Shown piece after piece: positions 3,898 to 49,213 of a stretch of 64,000 nt of DNA. The first letter of the stretch is position 1. The number at the start of each line of letters is the position of its first letter. Both the position numbers and the translations under genes were made by a program. This DNA comes from Bacteroidia bacterium (GTDB lineage Bacteria; Bacteroidota; Ignavibacteria; SZUA-365), in contig JAOSJT010000001.1 in the NCBI GenBank assembly GCA_027493955.1, forward strand, positions 1,909,131-1,973,130, read 5' to 3'. Below the pieces are notes generated by a model, which was not told the origin of the DNA, searched no databases, and worked only from the letters and a program-made list of their open reading frames with translations.

Positions 3898-5106
3898 GTG
3901 GATAAGTGAAGGGACTGTGCCGTTAATCGACGCACTATGACAAGACCATTTGGGACCTTGCTCTATAGGGAGGGGAGATTGCGTTATGAAGGCTGTAAAT
4001 ACTTTCTGCGTTTGTGAAAAGAAGCGCACCGCGGCGTACCGATCTCGCATGTGCGGGAAGGTCCCGCTTGCGGGCTTCGGAGCTGATGCCCCATGCAGGC
4101 GATTGCGGATCCCTGATTGTCGAACGCTGTCCGGCGTCCCTTTGCCGGTTGGGGTGGTTGCTGGCGAGAGCACTACCACATCATATTGCATCCAATGCCC
4201 TCGCGAGCGTAAAACACATGCGCGAGATGCTGCCGCTTCATCGCAGCAAATCCGGCTCATGTCAATGACTCGATAGAAGGTGCTGTTTACGCTCATGCCC
4301 ACGTCTCAGGCGAGATTGGAAACATTGGATGGAGCATATTTAGTGAATTGCTTTTTCAGATGCAAGCAAAATCGAACGGAGCTGTACGAATTTTTTCCCG
4401 TCGCGCCCCTCCATCCCGCATTTCGGGCCTGCTGGTGCGGATAGCGTACGCAAATTCATTTTTTGTCAGGTTGAGCGGAGGAGGACAGCGGAGCGACGTT
4501 GCCTCGGGGACGTTGGGGGGGACGGTATTTATTTTCCCTCCGCCGGTTAATGGCATCTTGGAGACAGTACCTGCTTTCTACGTGCGTAACGGAAAAAATC
4601 ATGCTTTTCCGTAGTAGCGGATCCGCTCTGCTGACAACAGATTGTCGACGCTGAGTCCGCCAAAGCTCGTCAACCTGAGTGTGCCCACCAGTCCGCCTCA
4701 GGCGGATACACTGGTCCAATTCGTGGTTGACATCAGCTTTTTCGCTCATTCACAAGTACCGTCACCCTGAGCGTAGCACCCGCGGCAAAATCTTGGTTTG
4801 AGGTACTCTCGTTTACAGGTGAGGAGTCGAAGGGCCTGCGTCCGGTTTCTACGACTTTCGCAAGCTCCGACTCCAAGATGTCATTAACAGGAGGCACGAC
4901 AAGAAAATCTGCAGGTGAAGTGAAATAGTCAGCAGAGTGCCGTCTCGAAGGTCGAAGACTCGCCGCGGCGGGGTGATTGGTTTCGCTCCAGCAAGCGGTT
5001 TGTAAGTCCGCTCGAGTCTACGAGTACGATGCGCAAGAAATCACCCTTCGAGACGCAGCCGCACACGATCAGTTCTTCGATCTGAAATCATCTTGCGGCT
5101 GCTCCT

Positions 5107-5544
5107 GTTAATGACATCTTGGAGACTGTGCGGACTTACTTGACTCGCGGATTCCGGACGCAGGCCCTTCGACTCCACGACCGTGAAAGTCTGTACCTCA
5201 GACTCAATCCGTACAGCGGTCGTTTCGCTCAGGGTGACGGGGTTTGTTGGCACTGCTGATACGACTCAGATGTCATCTCAGAAATGGGCCAGTGTATCCG
5301 CCTGAGGCGGACTGGTGGGCACACTGTTAATGACATCTTGGAGACTGTGCGGACTTACTTGACTCGCGGATTCCGGACGCAGGCCCTTCGACTCCACGAC
5401 CGTGAAAGTCTGTACCTCAGACTCAATCCGTACAGCGGTCGTTTCGCTCAGGGTGACGGGGTTTGTTGGCACTGCTGATACGACTCAGATGTCATCTCAG
5501 ACATGGGCCAGTGCATCCGCCTGAGGCGGACTGGTGGGCACACT
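5107..5544. repeat. Two tandem 219-bp direct repeats
   Basis: Copy 1 spans 5107-5325 and copy 2 spans 5326-5544. They are almost identical; the only differences seen are near the end (GAAATGGGCCAGTGTATCC against GACATGGGCCAGTGCATCC). Each starts GTTAATGACATCTTGGAGAC and ends with the palindrome TCCGCCTGAGGCGGA and then CTGGTGGGCACACT. The near-identity indicates a recent duplication. No coding potential was seen. Confidence 0.95.
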
Positions 5545-11141: not shown

Positions 11142-11519
11142 ATGGCAAAAACCCCGGCTCCCAAGAAGGCTGCCGCGCCGAAAAAAGCTGCTGCTCCCAA
11201 GGCCGCCGCACCCAAAAAGGCCGCCGCCCCCAAGGCTGCTGCTCCCAAAAAAGCCGCCGCACCCAAGGCCGCTGCTCCTAAAAAAGCCGCTGCTCCCAAG
11301 GCTGCTGCACCGAAAAAGGCTGCTGCCCCCAAGGCCGCCGCGCCGAAGAAAGCTGCTGCTCCGAAGGCTGCCGCACCCAAGAAAGCCGCTGCTCCCAAGG
11401 CCGCCGCGCCGAAGAAAGCCGCTGCTCCGAAGGCTGCCGCACCCAAGAAAGCCGCTGCTCCCAAGGCCGCCGCACCGAAAAAGGCCGCTGCACCCAAGAA
11501 AGCGGCTCCCAAGAAATAA
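11142..11519 (+). CDS. Lys/Ala/Pro-repeat protein, histone H1-like
   Basis: The 125-residue protein starts MAKTPAPKKAAAPKKAAA and consists almost entirely of an 11-residue unit (AAAPKKAAAPK) encoded by 33-bp DNA repeats. Third-position changes are scattered through the units, so the array is ancient or under selection for the protein sequence. The composition resembles AlgP-type and histone H1-like bacterial proteins that bind DNA through unstructured lysine-rich tails. It has no signal peptide. A weak GGAG precedes the ATG. It follows the YbjN gene by 43 bp and is followed by a hairpin, suggesting the end of a pspA operon. DNA binding is inferred from composition only. Confidence 0.75.
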   Translation: MAKTPAPKKAAAPKKAAAPKAAAPKKAAAPKAAAPKKAAAPKAAAPKKAAAPKAAAPKKAAAPKAAAPKKAAAPKAAAPKKAAAPKAAAPKKAAAPKAAAPKKAAAPKAAAPKKAAAPKKAAPKK

Positions 11520-25733: not shown

Positions 25734-26287
25734 TTCAACCTCCTATATACGATGATTAGGTACTGGATAAAGAGACGACGCGCACGGTGTTCCACGAAGT
25801 GCGCACGAAGCTCCAAGGGATTGCGGATGTATCCGATTGATCATTCACCCTGGTACCGCAAACCGTTTGCCACGATACGGTATGCGGAAAACAACGAGAG
25901 GGGATGGAAATACTGCTGAGAATCTACATTCTTTTACATCCGAAATCAATAACCCGGCGTTGGTGCGCGGCGAACGTTCGTTGCATCATAAATATGTTAC
26001 CAAGGCGCTCTCGAAAAACAAGTCGTTGCCTCATAATTGTATTACCAACAGCACGAGGCACGATTCATGGTGCGTTGGTTCATACACAATAATGTCGAGG
26101 GTCTTTCACAGGAGTCGTTGCGGTACGATTGGACCGTATCCGATTGATGGCGAAAGAGGCGAGTTCGAGAGTCCTTGTGTTTGACAGGTGCGTATTTTAT
26201 ATCCGGGAATCGAGGCGAGCGCTGATTACGGAGTGGCGTTTGTGGGCTCGGTGGTACGCAATCCGAGATCGTTTGGGAGATGATGTG
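25734..26287. other. Intergenic region upstream of the palindrome array
   Basis: This ~550-bp region carries no credible gene. It contains the promoter side of the TPR gene and leads into the palindrome array at 26288. Nothing else was recognised. Confidence 0.55.
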
Positions 26288-26577
26288 GGCGATTCATGTA
26301 TCGCCATCCGAGCGCGTCCTGAAAACCGAAATTGGGTGATTCATGTATCGCCACGCGAAGGAGATCTAAACAGGATGTGGGCGATTCATGTATCGCCACG
26401 CGAAGGAGATCTGAACAGGATGTGGGCGATTCATGTATCGCCACGCGAAGGAGATCTAAACAGGATGTGGGCGATTCATGTATCGCCACGCGAAGGAGAT
26501 CTGAACAGGATATGGGCGATTCATGTATCGCCATCTGATGGAGGCCCGAATCGGATTTGGGCGATTCATGTATCGCC
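26288..26577. repeat. Array of seven palindromes GGCGATTCATGTATCGCC
   Basis: An 18-bp perfect palindromic hairpin (GGCGAT-TCATGT-ATCGCC) occurs at 26288, 26335 (one base changed), 26380, 26425, 26470, 26515 and 26560. The last six are spaced exactly 45 bp. The intervening 27 bases are nearly identical in the central copies (ACGCGAAGGAGATCT then A/GAACAGGAT) and drift at the ends. The 45-bp unit keeps plus-strand frames open, giving an apparent repeat peptide, but no start signal or family supports a gene. It lies 3' of an IS200/RAYT-like gene. Confidence 0.93.
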
Positions 26578-26797
26578 CACTTGCTCTCCAGGACCCGGAA
26601 ACACCCCCGCCACACCAGGTCCCAGCCTTAAAACCACCACCCAAACCACCACACTCCTCCCTTTCGGACCATCATCCCTCAACAGACGGACCCAAATCCA
26701 GACAAATGCACAGAGCTTCCCCTCTCCGCCTGACGTCCGTCGTCCCGGAGCGCTGTCCCTGTCCCTTGCGATGAAAAAATGTCCTCTTCGCTTCCGC

Positions 26798-27610
26798 TTA
26801 CTCGGATAGAAAGATCCGGGCCGGACCAAGGTTCCGGACCACCGAGCCTCGCCCGCCCGCCATGCCACCGGCGCCTCCCCCACGCGCGACGCCCTTCTTG
26901 GATGCAGTGCGTACCGCCTCATCTCTCCGCGCTCCCGTCAGCAGCAGAACGCGGCCGAGAAGCATCGCCCCTGCGAGCTGACCCGATACCGCGCGCCCCT
27001 TGCTTCCATAGACGGACAGCGCACCCGTACCGCCGAATTCCGATGCCAGAACATCGGCCAAGGTGGAGGCCTGCTTCCCCTTCTTCGTCTGCTGCGCGGG
27101 ATCCACCACCACATGGCTCCACTCCTCCCGCAACTCCGCGTACACGCGGGCCAAGACCACCTCATCCTCCAGAACGCATGATGCGTAACGCCGCGCCCAG
27201 ACTTCGCCGCCGCCTTTGCCGGACAACGCGTTGATGCGATGCGCGCTGTTCATCTTCAGATACCCCATGAACTCCGGCAGTGTCATGATGCGCCGGTAGT
27301 ATATCCATTCGTCGCTGCCCTCCGGCGGCGCTTTCCGGGGATTCCGGACTTCAGTGATCTCCAACGCCAGCTCCACCTCGGAGGGACGAATGCTCAGTTC
27401 ATGAAGCCGGATGCACGGGAAATTCTGCAACGCCTGACCGAGCACATCGAGGAATGCGCGTCCGGCGTCGCTGAGCGTGGTGATGCCGTCCTTCGTCGTT
27501 CCGAGAATTTCGGCATTCTTCCTGGTCTTGAACACGACCAGATGCTTCGACAGCTTCGAATAGTCGTACTCCCGCACACGGCGGGTACTGAGTTCTTTAA
27601 GTCGTTTCAC
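26798..27610 (-). CDS. IS200/RAYT-like Y1 transposase homologue lacking the HUH motif
   Basis: The start is a GTG at 27610 with GGGAG six bases upstream (270 residues); a longer frame exists without such support. The order of blocks matches the Y1/IS200 fold. SKHLVVFKTR corresponds to the first strand, usually yHvvf. LHELSIRPSEVELALEI falls where the family has the MPxHVH catalytic strand. LPEFMGYLKMNSAHRIN corresponds to the LK..sar helix, EVWARRYASCVL to the WargY block, and ARVYAELREEW is where the nucleophilic Tyr is expected. The HxH pair is E78-V-E80 here, so metal-dependent nicking should be lost. The tail is basic and glycine-rich. It is probably a domesticated or decayed DNA-binding relative. 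It adjoins a palindrome array, as RAYT genes adjoin REPs. Confidence 0.7.
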   Translation of the reverse strand: MKRLKELSTRRVREYDYSKLSKHLVVFKTRKNAEILGTTKDGITTLSDAGRAFLDVLGQALQNFPCIRLHELSIRPSEVELALEITEVRNPRKAPPEGSDEWIYYRRIMTLPEFMGYLKMNSAHRINALSGKGGGEVWARRYASCVLEDEVVLARVYAELREEWSHVVVDPAQQTKKGKQASTLADVLASEFGGTGALSVYGSKGRAVSGQLAGAMLLGRVLLLTGARRDEAVRTASKKGVARGGGAGGMAGGRGSVVRNLGPARIFLSE

Positions 27611-27820
27611 AAAATGCTCCCTAAGCAGTGAAAAGAACGAACTTAAAGATAGGCACCCGTTCGCTGTCTGTTCAATGCAGAAAACCGCCGCTGCTCGTGA
27701 GCGTACCATACGATCAGGCACCCGACATCCGTACAGGAATTGCCCTTCGTCAAGTCTGTATGCTGTCATGCGACGGTCGTGTGCCGGCGGTCGCCGGAGT
27801 ACCCGCAGGACAGTGCTCCG

Positions 27821-28120
27821 TCAGAGTTCTATGGTGAAAATTTCCCGCTTCCCATCTTCGAGGAAGGGCAGGAAATTCTTGTACCATTCCTGCCACTTGG
27901 CGGTCGCCATCTCGCTATGGCTCATGCTTTCCCATGCGGCAAGATTCTCGAACGTGGATTCGAGGACAAGGGTATAGTACGGACCCGTAACGTCTGTGAG
28001 TACACGCATGGGGAATTCTTCACCCGACTCGGTCAGATCCGACGAGAACGCTTTCAGCGACGCCAGGGCGCCTTTCATCTGTCCAAAACGAATACGAAAT
28101 ATATCACGAACAAGTATCAT
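27821..28120 (-). CDS. NIPSNAP-like dimeric alpha/beta-barrel protein
   Basis: The 99-residue protein has the ferredoxin-like dimeric-barrel pattern: strand FRIRFGQMKGAL, a helix, then YYTLVLESTFENLAAWESM, SEMATAKWQEWYKNF and a closing strand KREIFTIEL. The size fits a single NIPSNAP/antibiotic-biosynthesis-monooxygenase-type domain. There is no signal peptide. Such small domains may be oxygenases or ligand binders, and the catalytic role here cannot be read. It stands alone between two gaps of 210 and 412 bp. Confidence 0.65.
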   Translation of the reverse strand: MILVRDIFRIRFGQMKGALASLKAFSSDLTESGEEFPMRVLTDVTGPYYTLVLESTFENLAAWESMSHSEMATAKWQEWYKNFLPFLEDGKREIFTIEL

Positions 28121-28532
28121 GATCAGGCCCTTTCATGGTGGTTAGTGCAGGAATGATGTTGCGCCGGAATATAGGATATTCGCTATCCGATTTCAAGCCC
28201 AATCAACGAATACTGCCTTGCAAGAACAGTGCCTTGCAAGGGCGGGATATGAGGTCGCACGCAGTCGGCACGCTTGAATCAGGGGCAATCGAATCCCAAT
28301 GCGACCGCGATGTCGCGCGGATCGCCGCTTGGACGAGTGGAAAGCGCAGCATTGTCGCGAGATGGATGCAGCAGCTACCGCGAGCATCGTGCCGATCCAC
28401 ACCCATCCGCGTACGGACTCGTACGCGGAAAGGCGCGGATTCACGGATTACCCGGACAGAGAGCGGAGCGAAAGGATTGCCGGTCGCGACCTAATGCCGT
28501 TGCGGACGAGCCACTCGACCGTCGTGCGCCAA
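28121..28532. other. Intergenic stretch without recognisable features
   Basis: This stretch is 412 bp long. A short direct repeat (CCTTGCAAG twice near 28213-28240) is the only structure seen. No credible reading frame or terminator was found. Confidence 0.5.
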
Positions 28533-39282: not shown

Positions 39283-39816
39283 AGCAGAGAGCACGGCCGT
39301 GCGGGGGCGCTCGCACGGTACAAGTGCCTCGGTTCGGGAGGAGGCAGAGAGCGAAGAGCGGAGAGCACGGTCGTGCTGGGGGCGCGGCGCAAAGAGCAGA
39401 GAGCAGAGAGCAGAGAGCAGAGAGCACGGTCGTGCGTTACGGATGTCCGCACAAAGAACTATAACCGCTGCCTGGCTCTTGTGTGTATCCGACGCCACCC
39501 GCCTCCCAAACAAAGGCACTTGTGCAATTCGAGCGATCTTGCACGGCCGTGCTCTCTGCTCTCTGCTCTCTGCTCTCGGCTCTCTGCTCTCGGCTCTCTG
39601 CTCTCGGCTCTCTGCTCTCGGCTCTCTGCTCTCGGCTCTCTGCTCTCGGCTCTCTGCTCTCTGCTCTCTGTTCTCGGCTCTCTGCTCTCGGCCGCACCAC
39701 CGCCCGTACAGACGCCCGACCGGGCGTCTCTACCGCACCACCACCGCCCGTGTTGCCTGGGCCCCCGCACCGATCATGCGAATGAAATACATCCCGGGCC
39801 GCAAACGCAATGCCGA
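39283..39816. repeat. Heptad-armed duplicated element, copy A
   Basis: The left part has purine heptads (GAGAGCA type) punctuated by the palindrome GCACGG(C/T)CGTGC near 39290, 39365 and 39424. A ~105-bp central spacer (39436-39540) follows, then GCACGGCCGTGC and pyrimidine heptads (GCTCTCT/GCTCTCG, 39551-39690), so the arms can pair. The right end includes the last ~30 codons of the T9SS gene that stops at 39730. Copy B lies at 48714-49213 in the same orientation with near-identical spacer and end; only the heptad numbers differ clearly. Confidence 0.93.
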
Positions 39817-48713: not shown

Positions 48714-49213
48714 GAGCGGAGAGCACGGCCGTGTGGGGGCGCTCGCACCGTACAAGTGCCTCAGTTCGGGAGGAGGCAGAGAGCGAAGAGCGGAGAGCAC
48801 GGTCGTGCTGGGGGCGCGGCGCAAAGAGCAGAGAGCAGAGAGCAGAGAGCACGGTCGTGCGTTACGGATGTCCGCACAAAGAACTATAACCGCTGCCTGG
48901 CTCTTGTGTGTATCCGACGCCACCCGCCTCCCAAACAAAGGCACTTGTGCAATTCGAGCGATCTTGCACGGCCGTGCTCTCTGCTCTCAGCTCTCTGCTC
49001 TTTGCTCTCTGCTCTCGGCTCTCGGCTCTCTGCTCTCGGCTCTCTGCTCTCTGCTCTCTGCTCTCTGTTCTCGGCTCTCTGCTCTCGGCCGCACCACCGC
49101 CCGTACAGACGTCCGGCCGGGCGTCTCTACCGCACCACCACCGCGCGCGTTGCCAGGGCCCCCGCACCGATCATGCGAATGAAATACATTCCCGCCCGCA
49201 GCTGCAATGCCGA
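48714..49213. repeat. Heptad-armed duplicated element, copy B
   Basis: This is the direct copy of 39283-39816. The central spacer (GTTACGGATGTCCGCACAAA and onward) and the right end are near identical. The pyrimidine array (48976-49088) is shorter and differs in a few heptads. The copy carries with it the end of a T9SS sorting domain but no gene body. Confidence 0.93.

Follow-up and report, generated by a model that had tools for sequence, protein, structure and literature searches.

REP-associated tyrosine transposases (RAYTs) are, in published accounts, mostly single-copy HUH enzymes without signs of mobility of their own (PMC8266576, PMC2817692). The RAYTs described there keep both HUH and Tyr, and no multi-copy mobility is reported for them (PMC2817692, PMC3733652). 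The main survey set aside sequences without HuH or Y as probably non-functional (PMC6006769), and copy numbers in class 2 are given as low except in subclass 2.3 (PMC6006769, PMC8266576, PMC2817692, PMC3733652). The IS200/IS605 enzymes are characterised as homodimers with hybrid active sites (PMC2817692). No description of a dead, multi-copy RAYT family was found in the literature searched, which leaves most subscription journals outside its coverage.

We analysed a 64,000-nucleotide stretch of DNA (the window) in which a sequence-only reading had singled out a RAYT/IS200-like gene with HUH changed to E-V-E. The span proposed for this minus-strand gene is right: it coincides with the GTG-started 270-aa frame common to the close paralogues, with AGGGAGC just before the start of the window copy, and a longer ATG frame of 323 aa is not conserved among them (Table 1). 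The genome is a single contig of 5.24 Mb (100% complete), in which the protein has 17 matches at E ≤ 10. RPSEVE proteins (EVE), 68–100% identical, are encoded at nine loci; in one of these copies (L019) codon 3 is an in-frame TGA. A sister group (xVE, L026–L030) of four full-length proteins and one truncated one (L030) reads RPTSIE or RPRCVE at the same place. Also matched are an outlier with LPASAH (L031), in which neither the first His nor the Tyr and Asn remain, a remnant (L032) consisting of first codons and two palindromes, and a canonical RAYT (L033), the weakest of the 17. A RAYT profile and PF01797 each revealed another canonical RAYT (L035), and PF01797 also an IS200-like HxH gene (L034).

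None of the 14 multi-copy paralogues (9 EVE and 5 xVE) retains either His, the nucleophilic Tyr or the third metal ligand; other residues stand in all four columns. In a joint alignment, canonical rows show MP[ND]HxH and Y---N, and the family motif is R-P-x-[ESC]-[VI]-E, with EVE in 9/9 and SIE or CVE in 5/5 at the HUH position. The Tyr column is occupied by Glu in seven EVE copies, Ala in two and Arg in the five sister copies, and the Asn column by Glu, Arg or Gly (Glu159 and Glu163 in the window copy), leaving no nucleophilic Tyr with a Y---NP signature. Counted over 43 canonical rows, which exclude ten duplicates or fragments, and disregarding gaps, M75, P76 and H80 have a frequency of 1.0, R11, K119 and W138 of 0.98, and D16 and Y17 of 0.95; all 13 full-length rows of the family retain R11, D16, Y17, P76, K119 and W138, and every one has R for M75 and E for H80. 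S18 is also among the scaffold residues retained in the 14 multi-copy paralogues. Because the H, H, Y and N columns are replaced and the scaffold residues kept, the catalytic centre, as judged from the alignment, is replaced as a whole while the frame of the fold stays.

The claim that both metal-binding His had become Glu is correct for the window copy, in which E-V-E aligns on the HxH column. Collecting homologues, the check proposed at the time, found E-V-E conserved in 9/9 close paralogues, among which both Glu codons vary synonymously between GAG and GAA. The two Glu differ in importance, however, since only E80 is invariant across both clades and the first position (78) is E, S or C. A metal site formed by E-V-E in partnership with the old Tyr, which would be one form of the repurposed active site suggested earlier, is unlikely given that neither that Tyr nor the third ligand survives; a rebuilt site is weighed below.

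The window protein is homologous to RAYTs far beyond chance by profile comparison. A profile built from five HxH RAYTs, the kind of search that had been called for, finds the window copy at E 6.4e-18 (66.5 bits) and scores the nine EVE copies at 65.5–67.1 bits, and hhalign of the family against seven HxH RAYTs gives a probability of 99.8 (E 1.4e-27, residues 7–160) with E-V-E placed on HxH. Pfam and NCBIfam alone miss the relationship, with 0 families for the window protein; PADLOC and PHROGs searches likewise returned 0 families, and a known domain or defence protein was rejected on these four results. Y1_Tnp is matched weakly by 7/12 family members (best E 0.031), and the family falls short of the curated cut-off of PF01797 that serves as the IS200/IS605 criterion. 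Against PDB sequences the family profile gives weak matches to unrelated chains (Disks large, E 0.083), and the HxH profile finds TnpA-REP at E 2.9e-5.

An AlphaFold2 model was built from five sequences, four of them HxH RAYTs, so that its fold is partly imposed by these relatives; its pLDDT is approximately 74–88 over residues 21–130 and below 50 beyond residue 165. Foldseek and VIA-align comparisons of the model rank Y1 transposases first, with IS608 at Z 14.0 (rmsd 2.2 over 103) and E. coli TnpA-REP (4er8) at Z 12.7 (rmsd 2.0 over 120), and the best row that is not a Y1 transposase at Z 8.5. The Y1/RAYT fold recognised from the letters alone is therefore backed by both the profile matches and the model, and the absence of any Y1 match that would have spoken against it was not seen. 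The family has this fold and core sequence homology to RAYTs but fails the defining HUH and Tyr tests, and is for that reason not filed as a RAYT proper, though descended from one. The basic, glycine-rich tail noted by the same reading is present beyond the fold (20 Gly in 106 residues), and its end, GP.RI, is also found in the sister clade.

Pairwise dN/dS (NG86 script, values uncorrected for the tree) is 0.11–0.33 in 41/42 pairs, comprising 35/36 EVE pairs at 0.11–0.30 and 6/6 sister pairs at 0.11–0.33 (L030 left out). The exception, L024/L025 (dN/dS 0.66), is separated by 4 nonsynonymous and 2 synonymous differences, a number too small for a verdict. Values of dS extend up to about 1.2 within EVE and beyond 2 in one sister pair, the largest being saturated. 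By these estimates the family is under purifying selection; random decay, which the sequence-only reading had discounted, is rejected by the same ratios. In a tree of 53 rows (fragments, duplicates and L030 left out; midpoint root, for drawing), the nine EVE and the four sister proteins each form one side of a branch (100/98 and 99/97, respectively) and join at 100/98. L031 joins both at 95/93, with a program warning of long branches, and the nearest HxH rows, L036 and L037, come from the same taxonomic family.

Matches were found in 12 of 61 genomes in a search of relatives (E ≤ 1e-3), in 43 of 391 in a search of the class (E ≤ 1e-10) and in 11 of 395 in a search of the phylum (E ≤ 1e-15); the counts include the genome itself, the searches overlap in genomes, and none other of the genus is among them. 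All foreign loci read (12 from relatives, 28 from the class, of which three or more had already been read, 11 from the phylum, L056 and the viral-contig loci) are HxH where the motif is covered, except a 54-residue fragment, L128, that reads NHIR. A scan of genome contigs, which needs one of two short peptides and would miss divergent members, returned 16 stretches, one of them confirmed as an HxH RAYT of a Chloroflexi MAG (L056). Viral contigs searched with the family profile gave 66 candidate stretches with 0 confirmed, and plasmid and phage records gave no match at E 0.01. The best reading of these searches is that the HUH-less family is genome-restricted, with one genome known. The sequence-only reading had named HxH-keeping homologues, with this copy an isolated mutant, as grounds for giving it up. 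Homologues in other genomes are indeed HxH, but the window copy is not isolated, and nine RPSEVE loci in the same genome reject the isolated mutant.

An array of palindromes, overlooked in the sequence-only reading, sits 3′ of the window gene (Table 1). The EVE clade has the palindrome GGCGATTCATGTATCGCC and the sister clade TTTCGATTCATGAATCG, each arrayed 3′ of its genes. Searched as GGCGATNCATGNATCGCC, the EVE palindrome occurs at 48 places in the genome and the reversed control at 0, by which chance palindromes were rejected; all 48 have an asymmetric centre, reading TCATGT on one strand and ACATGA on the other. The nine EVE genes account for 31 of them, all on the 3′ side, the remnant L032 for 2 and six other places for 15, which are singles or form arrays with periods of ~118–151 bp and one interval about double. 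REP-like palindromes are found both near the genes and away from them. At L084–L087, EVE palindromes stand in larger tandem units (~118–151 bp) without a gene. The sister palindrome occurs at 9 places, 9/9 within ~0.6 kb 3′ of the five xVE genes. Because the palindromes are clade-specific, protein clade and palindrome have evidently changed in step, as the main survey describes for RAYT/REP pairs (PMC6006769).

Intervals in the EVE arrays are exactly 45 bp in 24/28 cases, and the 24 spacers of 27 nt (18 distinct) are 37–100% identical between loci (median 52%). Exact EVE palindromes lie 3′ of the gene only, in 9/9 copies read with ~2.4–3 kb of upstream flank, and the RAYT arrangement of REPs in inverted orientation on both sides of the gene is not seen in EVE copies. 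Where RAYT hairpins have a GT[AG]G foot, some units read GTGG...CCAC and others ATGG or GCGG. DNA folding of three single EVE units gave two weak hairpins (z -1.6 and -1.2) and one good one (z -4.6), and the sister and L036 units fold into good hairpins (z -4.5 and -7.9). An Rfam scan of positions 25800–28200 found no known RNA family at gathering score. The wider class GGCRATNCATGNATYGCC occurs in 4/60 other genomes with 1–3 copies each, some beside or inside HxH RAYTs (L045, L099), and the nearest HxH relative, L036, has GTAG-footed GTAGGGCGGATTCATGAATCCGCCC-type repeats with the same GATTCATGAATC core. No HxH RAYT with the EVE palindrome was found in the genome: its canonical RAYTs adjoin another palindrome type, GTAGAGAC...GTCTCTAC (11 places), and the IS200-like L034 adjoins CCCCACAC-type palindromes. 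In the oriented copy of L034 (3546–4260), a 3′ array of CCCCACACTTACGTATGGGG-type palindromes, many ~46 bp apart, resembles the EVE arrays.

The window holds further repeats. Positions 39350–39700 and 48780–49090 are two repeat copies with a ~150-nt common core and inverted heptamer arrays (GAGAGCA / TGCTCTC), 11166–11498 is a 33-bp tandem repeat of AAGGCCGCCGCACCGAAAAAAGCC type that could encode a Lys/Ala/Pro-rich stretch, and 5105–5544 contains a 219-bp unit as two repeats (99%).

DNA similarity between copies begins at most ~100 nt upstream of the start and stops in the array, with unrelated flanks on either side, defining a gene-plus-array unit of about 1.2–1.4 kb. EVE units stand at intergenic positions. 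The identity of L024 and L025 reaches 98.6% across 1.1 kb bounded by AGGGAGC and the second palindrome and goes no further, and their promoter regions are dissimilar; the appearance of recent dispersal in this pair could also stem from conversion between older gene copies. In EVE copies L018–L023, 62 nt separate GGGAG from an upstream TTTCTGCCTTG-like motif (0–2 mismatches); the distance is 67 in L025, 64 in L032 and 64 in L024 (3 mismatches), with a divergent spacer. The motif is likely a promoter or left end. GGGAG[CT] stands just 5′ of the start in 17/18 Y1-type genes of the genome (L017–L030, L033, L034, L035), the exception being L031 with GGGAAA, and in 0/38 long window ORFs by a crude start rule. 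It may be either a Shine-Dalgarno sequence or an insertion-site preference. Joining the flanks of the nine copies revealed no convincing interrupted gene at the insertion sites; frames of 667 (L020), 634 (L021) and 1034 codons (L024) cross the joins and reach only 50–130 nt to one side, and are read as chance extensions of a neighbouring gene.

Table 1. Features of the window copy and its surroundings (positions in the window).
Feature	Positions	Strand	Remark
RAYT-derived gene without HUH, 270 aa, GTG start	26798..27610	-	9 genome loci encode RPSEVE proteins
RPSEVE (residues 75-80) where RAYTs have MP[ND]HxH	27371..27388	-	joint alignment
Residues 159-163, E-L-R-E-E: columns of nucleophilic Tyr (159) and third metal ligand Asn (163)	27122..27136	-	
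Basic Gly-rich C-terminal tail, residues 165-270, pI 11.3, pLDDT < 50	26801..27118	-	
GGGAGC just 5′ of start codon, Shine-Dalgarno-like	27616..27621	-	also left edge of L024/L025 homology
TTTCTGCATTG, 62 nt upstream of GGGAG in window copy (distance worked out from coordinates)	27673..27683	-	likely promoter or left-end element
Seven-palindrome array: six match GGCGATTCATGTATCGCC exactly, one (26335-26352) differs at one position; spacing 45 bp (once 47)	26288..26577	.	

Our main reading, to which we give a probability of about 0.55, is that these dispersed gene-plus-array units carry a family, restricted to this genome, of palindrome-binding proteins that descend from RAYTs and are non-catalytic. 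A RAYT descendant would have kept the Y1 fold while its whole catalytic centre was replaced, and the protein, most likely dimeric, would bind the 45-bp-phased array 3′ of its own gene as well as the scattered copies of the palindrome. Continued selection on the proteins and clade-specific arrays suggest palindrome binders, not enzymes. Once catalysis was gone, the unit of gene and array would have spread to unrelated loci, relying for strand cleavage on another enzyme in trans or on replication or repair by the host; catalysis in trans is our leading guess for the route of spread. Since searches of the genome turned up no HxH enzyme with the EVE palindrome, spread would call for a trans enzyme that acts despite a different palindrome, a recently lost helper, host copying or a new active site. 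A broader proposition, that a mobile element family kept spreading and split into two palindrome-specific clades after losing HUH and Tyr, through either a rebuilt and so far undescribed site or binding to its array combined with a borrowed enzyme, is tentative and falls somewhat below even odds.

Were the active site rebuilt, the family would still cut DNA through E80 together with, for example, C66, R75 and D149, and move its own unit. These four residues are invariant in 12/12 aligned copies and mostly differ from the canonical ones, selection is strong, dispersal appears to have gone on after the loss of HUH and Tyr, and no HxH RAYT paired with the EVE palindrome turned up in the genome. 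Such a site has no evident nucleophile, however; the first Glu varies (E, S or C), E, A or R has taken the place of the old Tyr, and Tyr157 of the window copy, close to that column, is H, C or I in other copies, which makes us regard it as unlikely. Slightly better placed, though still improbable, is a host-domesticated array-binding protein (nucleoid, replication or RNA 3′-end) whose copies spread by recombination or gene conversion and not by transposition. Intergenic positions, phased arrays, strong purifying selection and long persistence in the genome (as judged from dS within EVE) agree with it, but the scattered units, nine in one clade and five in the other, end sharply amid unrelated flanks and have the look of mobile units, and each clade has its own palindrome, like RAYT/REP pairs. 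The sequence-only reading had likewise proposed a domesticated DNA-binding protein; we retain the predicted binding, but simple domestication does not sit easily with a multi-copy gene dispersed in sharply bounded units. The least likely of the alternatives is a parasitic or regulatory partner, a dead subunit that directs or dampens a canonical RAYT or IS200 enzyme in mixed dimers. Two canonical RAYTs and one IS200-like enzyme are at hand in the genome, and the hybrid active sites of IS200/IS605 homodimers would suit such a role, but these enzymes adjoin palindromes other than that of EVE.

If the main reading holds, this family, multi-copy, under selection and matched to palindromes of its own, would separate REP recognition from cleavage, and it raises the question of palindrome binding by a dead RAYT and of what moves the units.

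Compared with RAYT/TnpA-REP (class 2 TnpAY1; NCBIfam NF047646), the family has the same core fold, scaffold residues and palindromes near the gene, but differs in the loss of H, H, Y and N, in being multi-copy, in its one-sided 3′ array at 45 bp and in its long basic tail. With IS200/IS605 TnpA (subclass 1.1) it shares the fold and multi-copy units ending in hairpins, whereas it has no HUH or Tyr, matches RAYT profiles and stays below the PF01797 cut-off. TldRs are nuclease-dead TnpB regulators, derived from transposons, that have lost catalysis and kept recognition. The family resembles them as a transposon-derived, dead protein with (here predicted) recognition, and differs in stemming from another protein and in its palindrome arrays.
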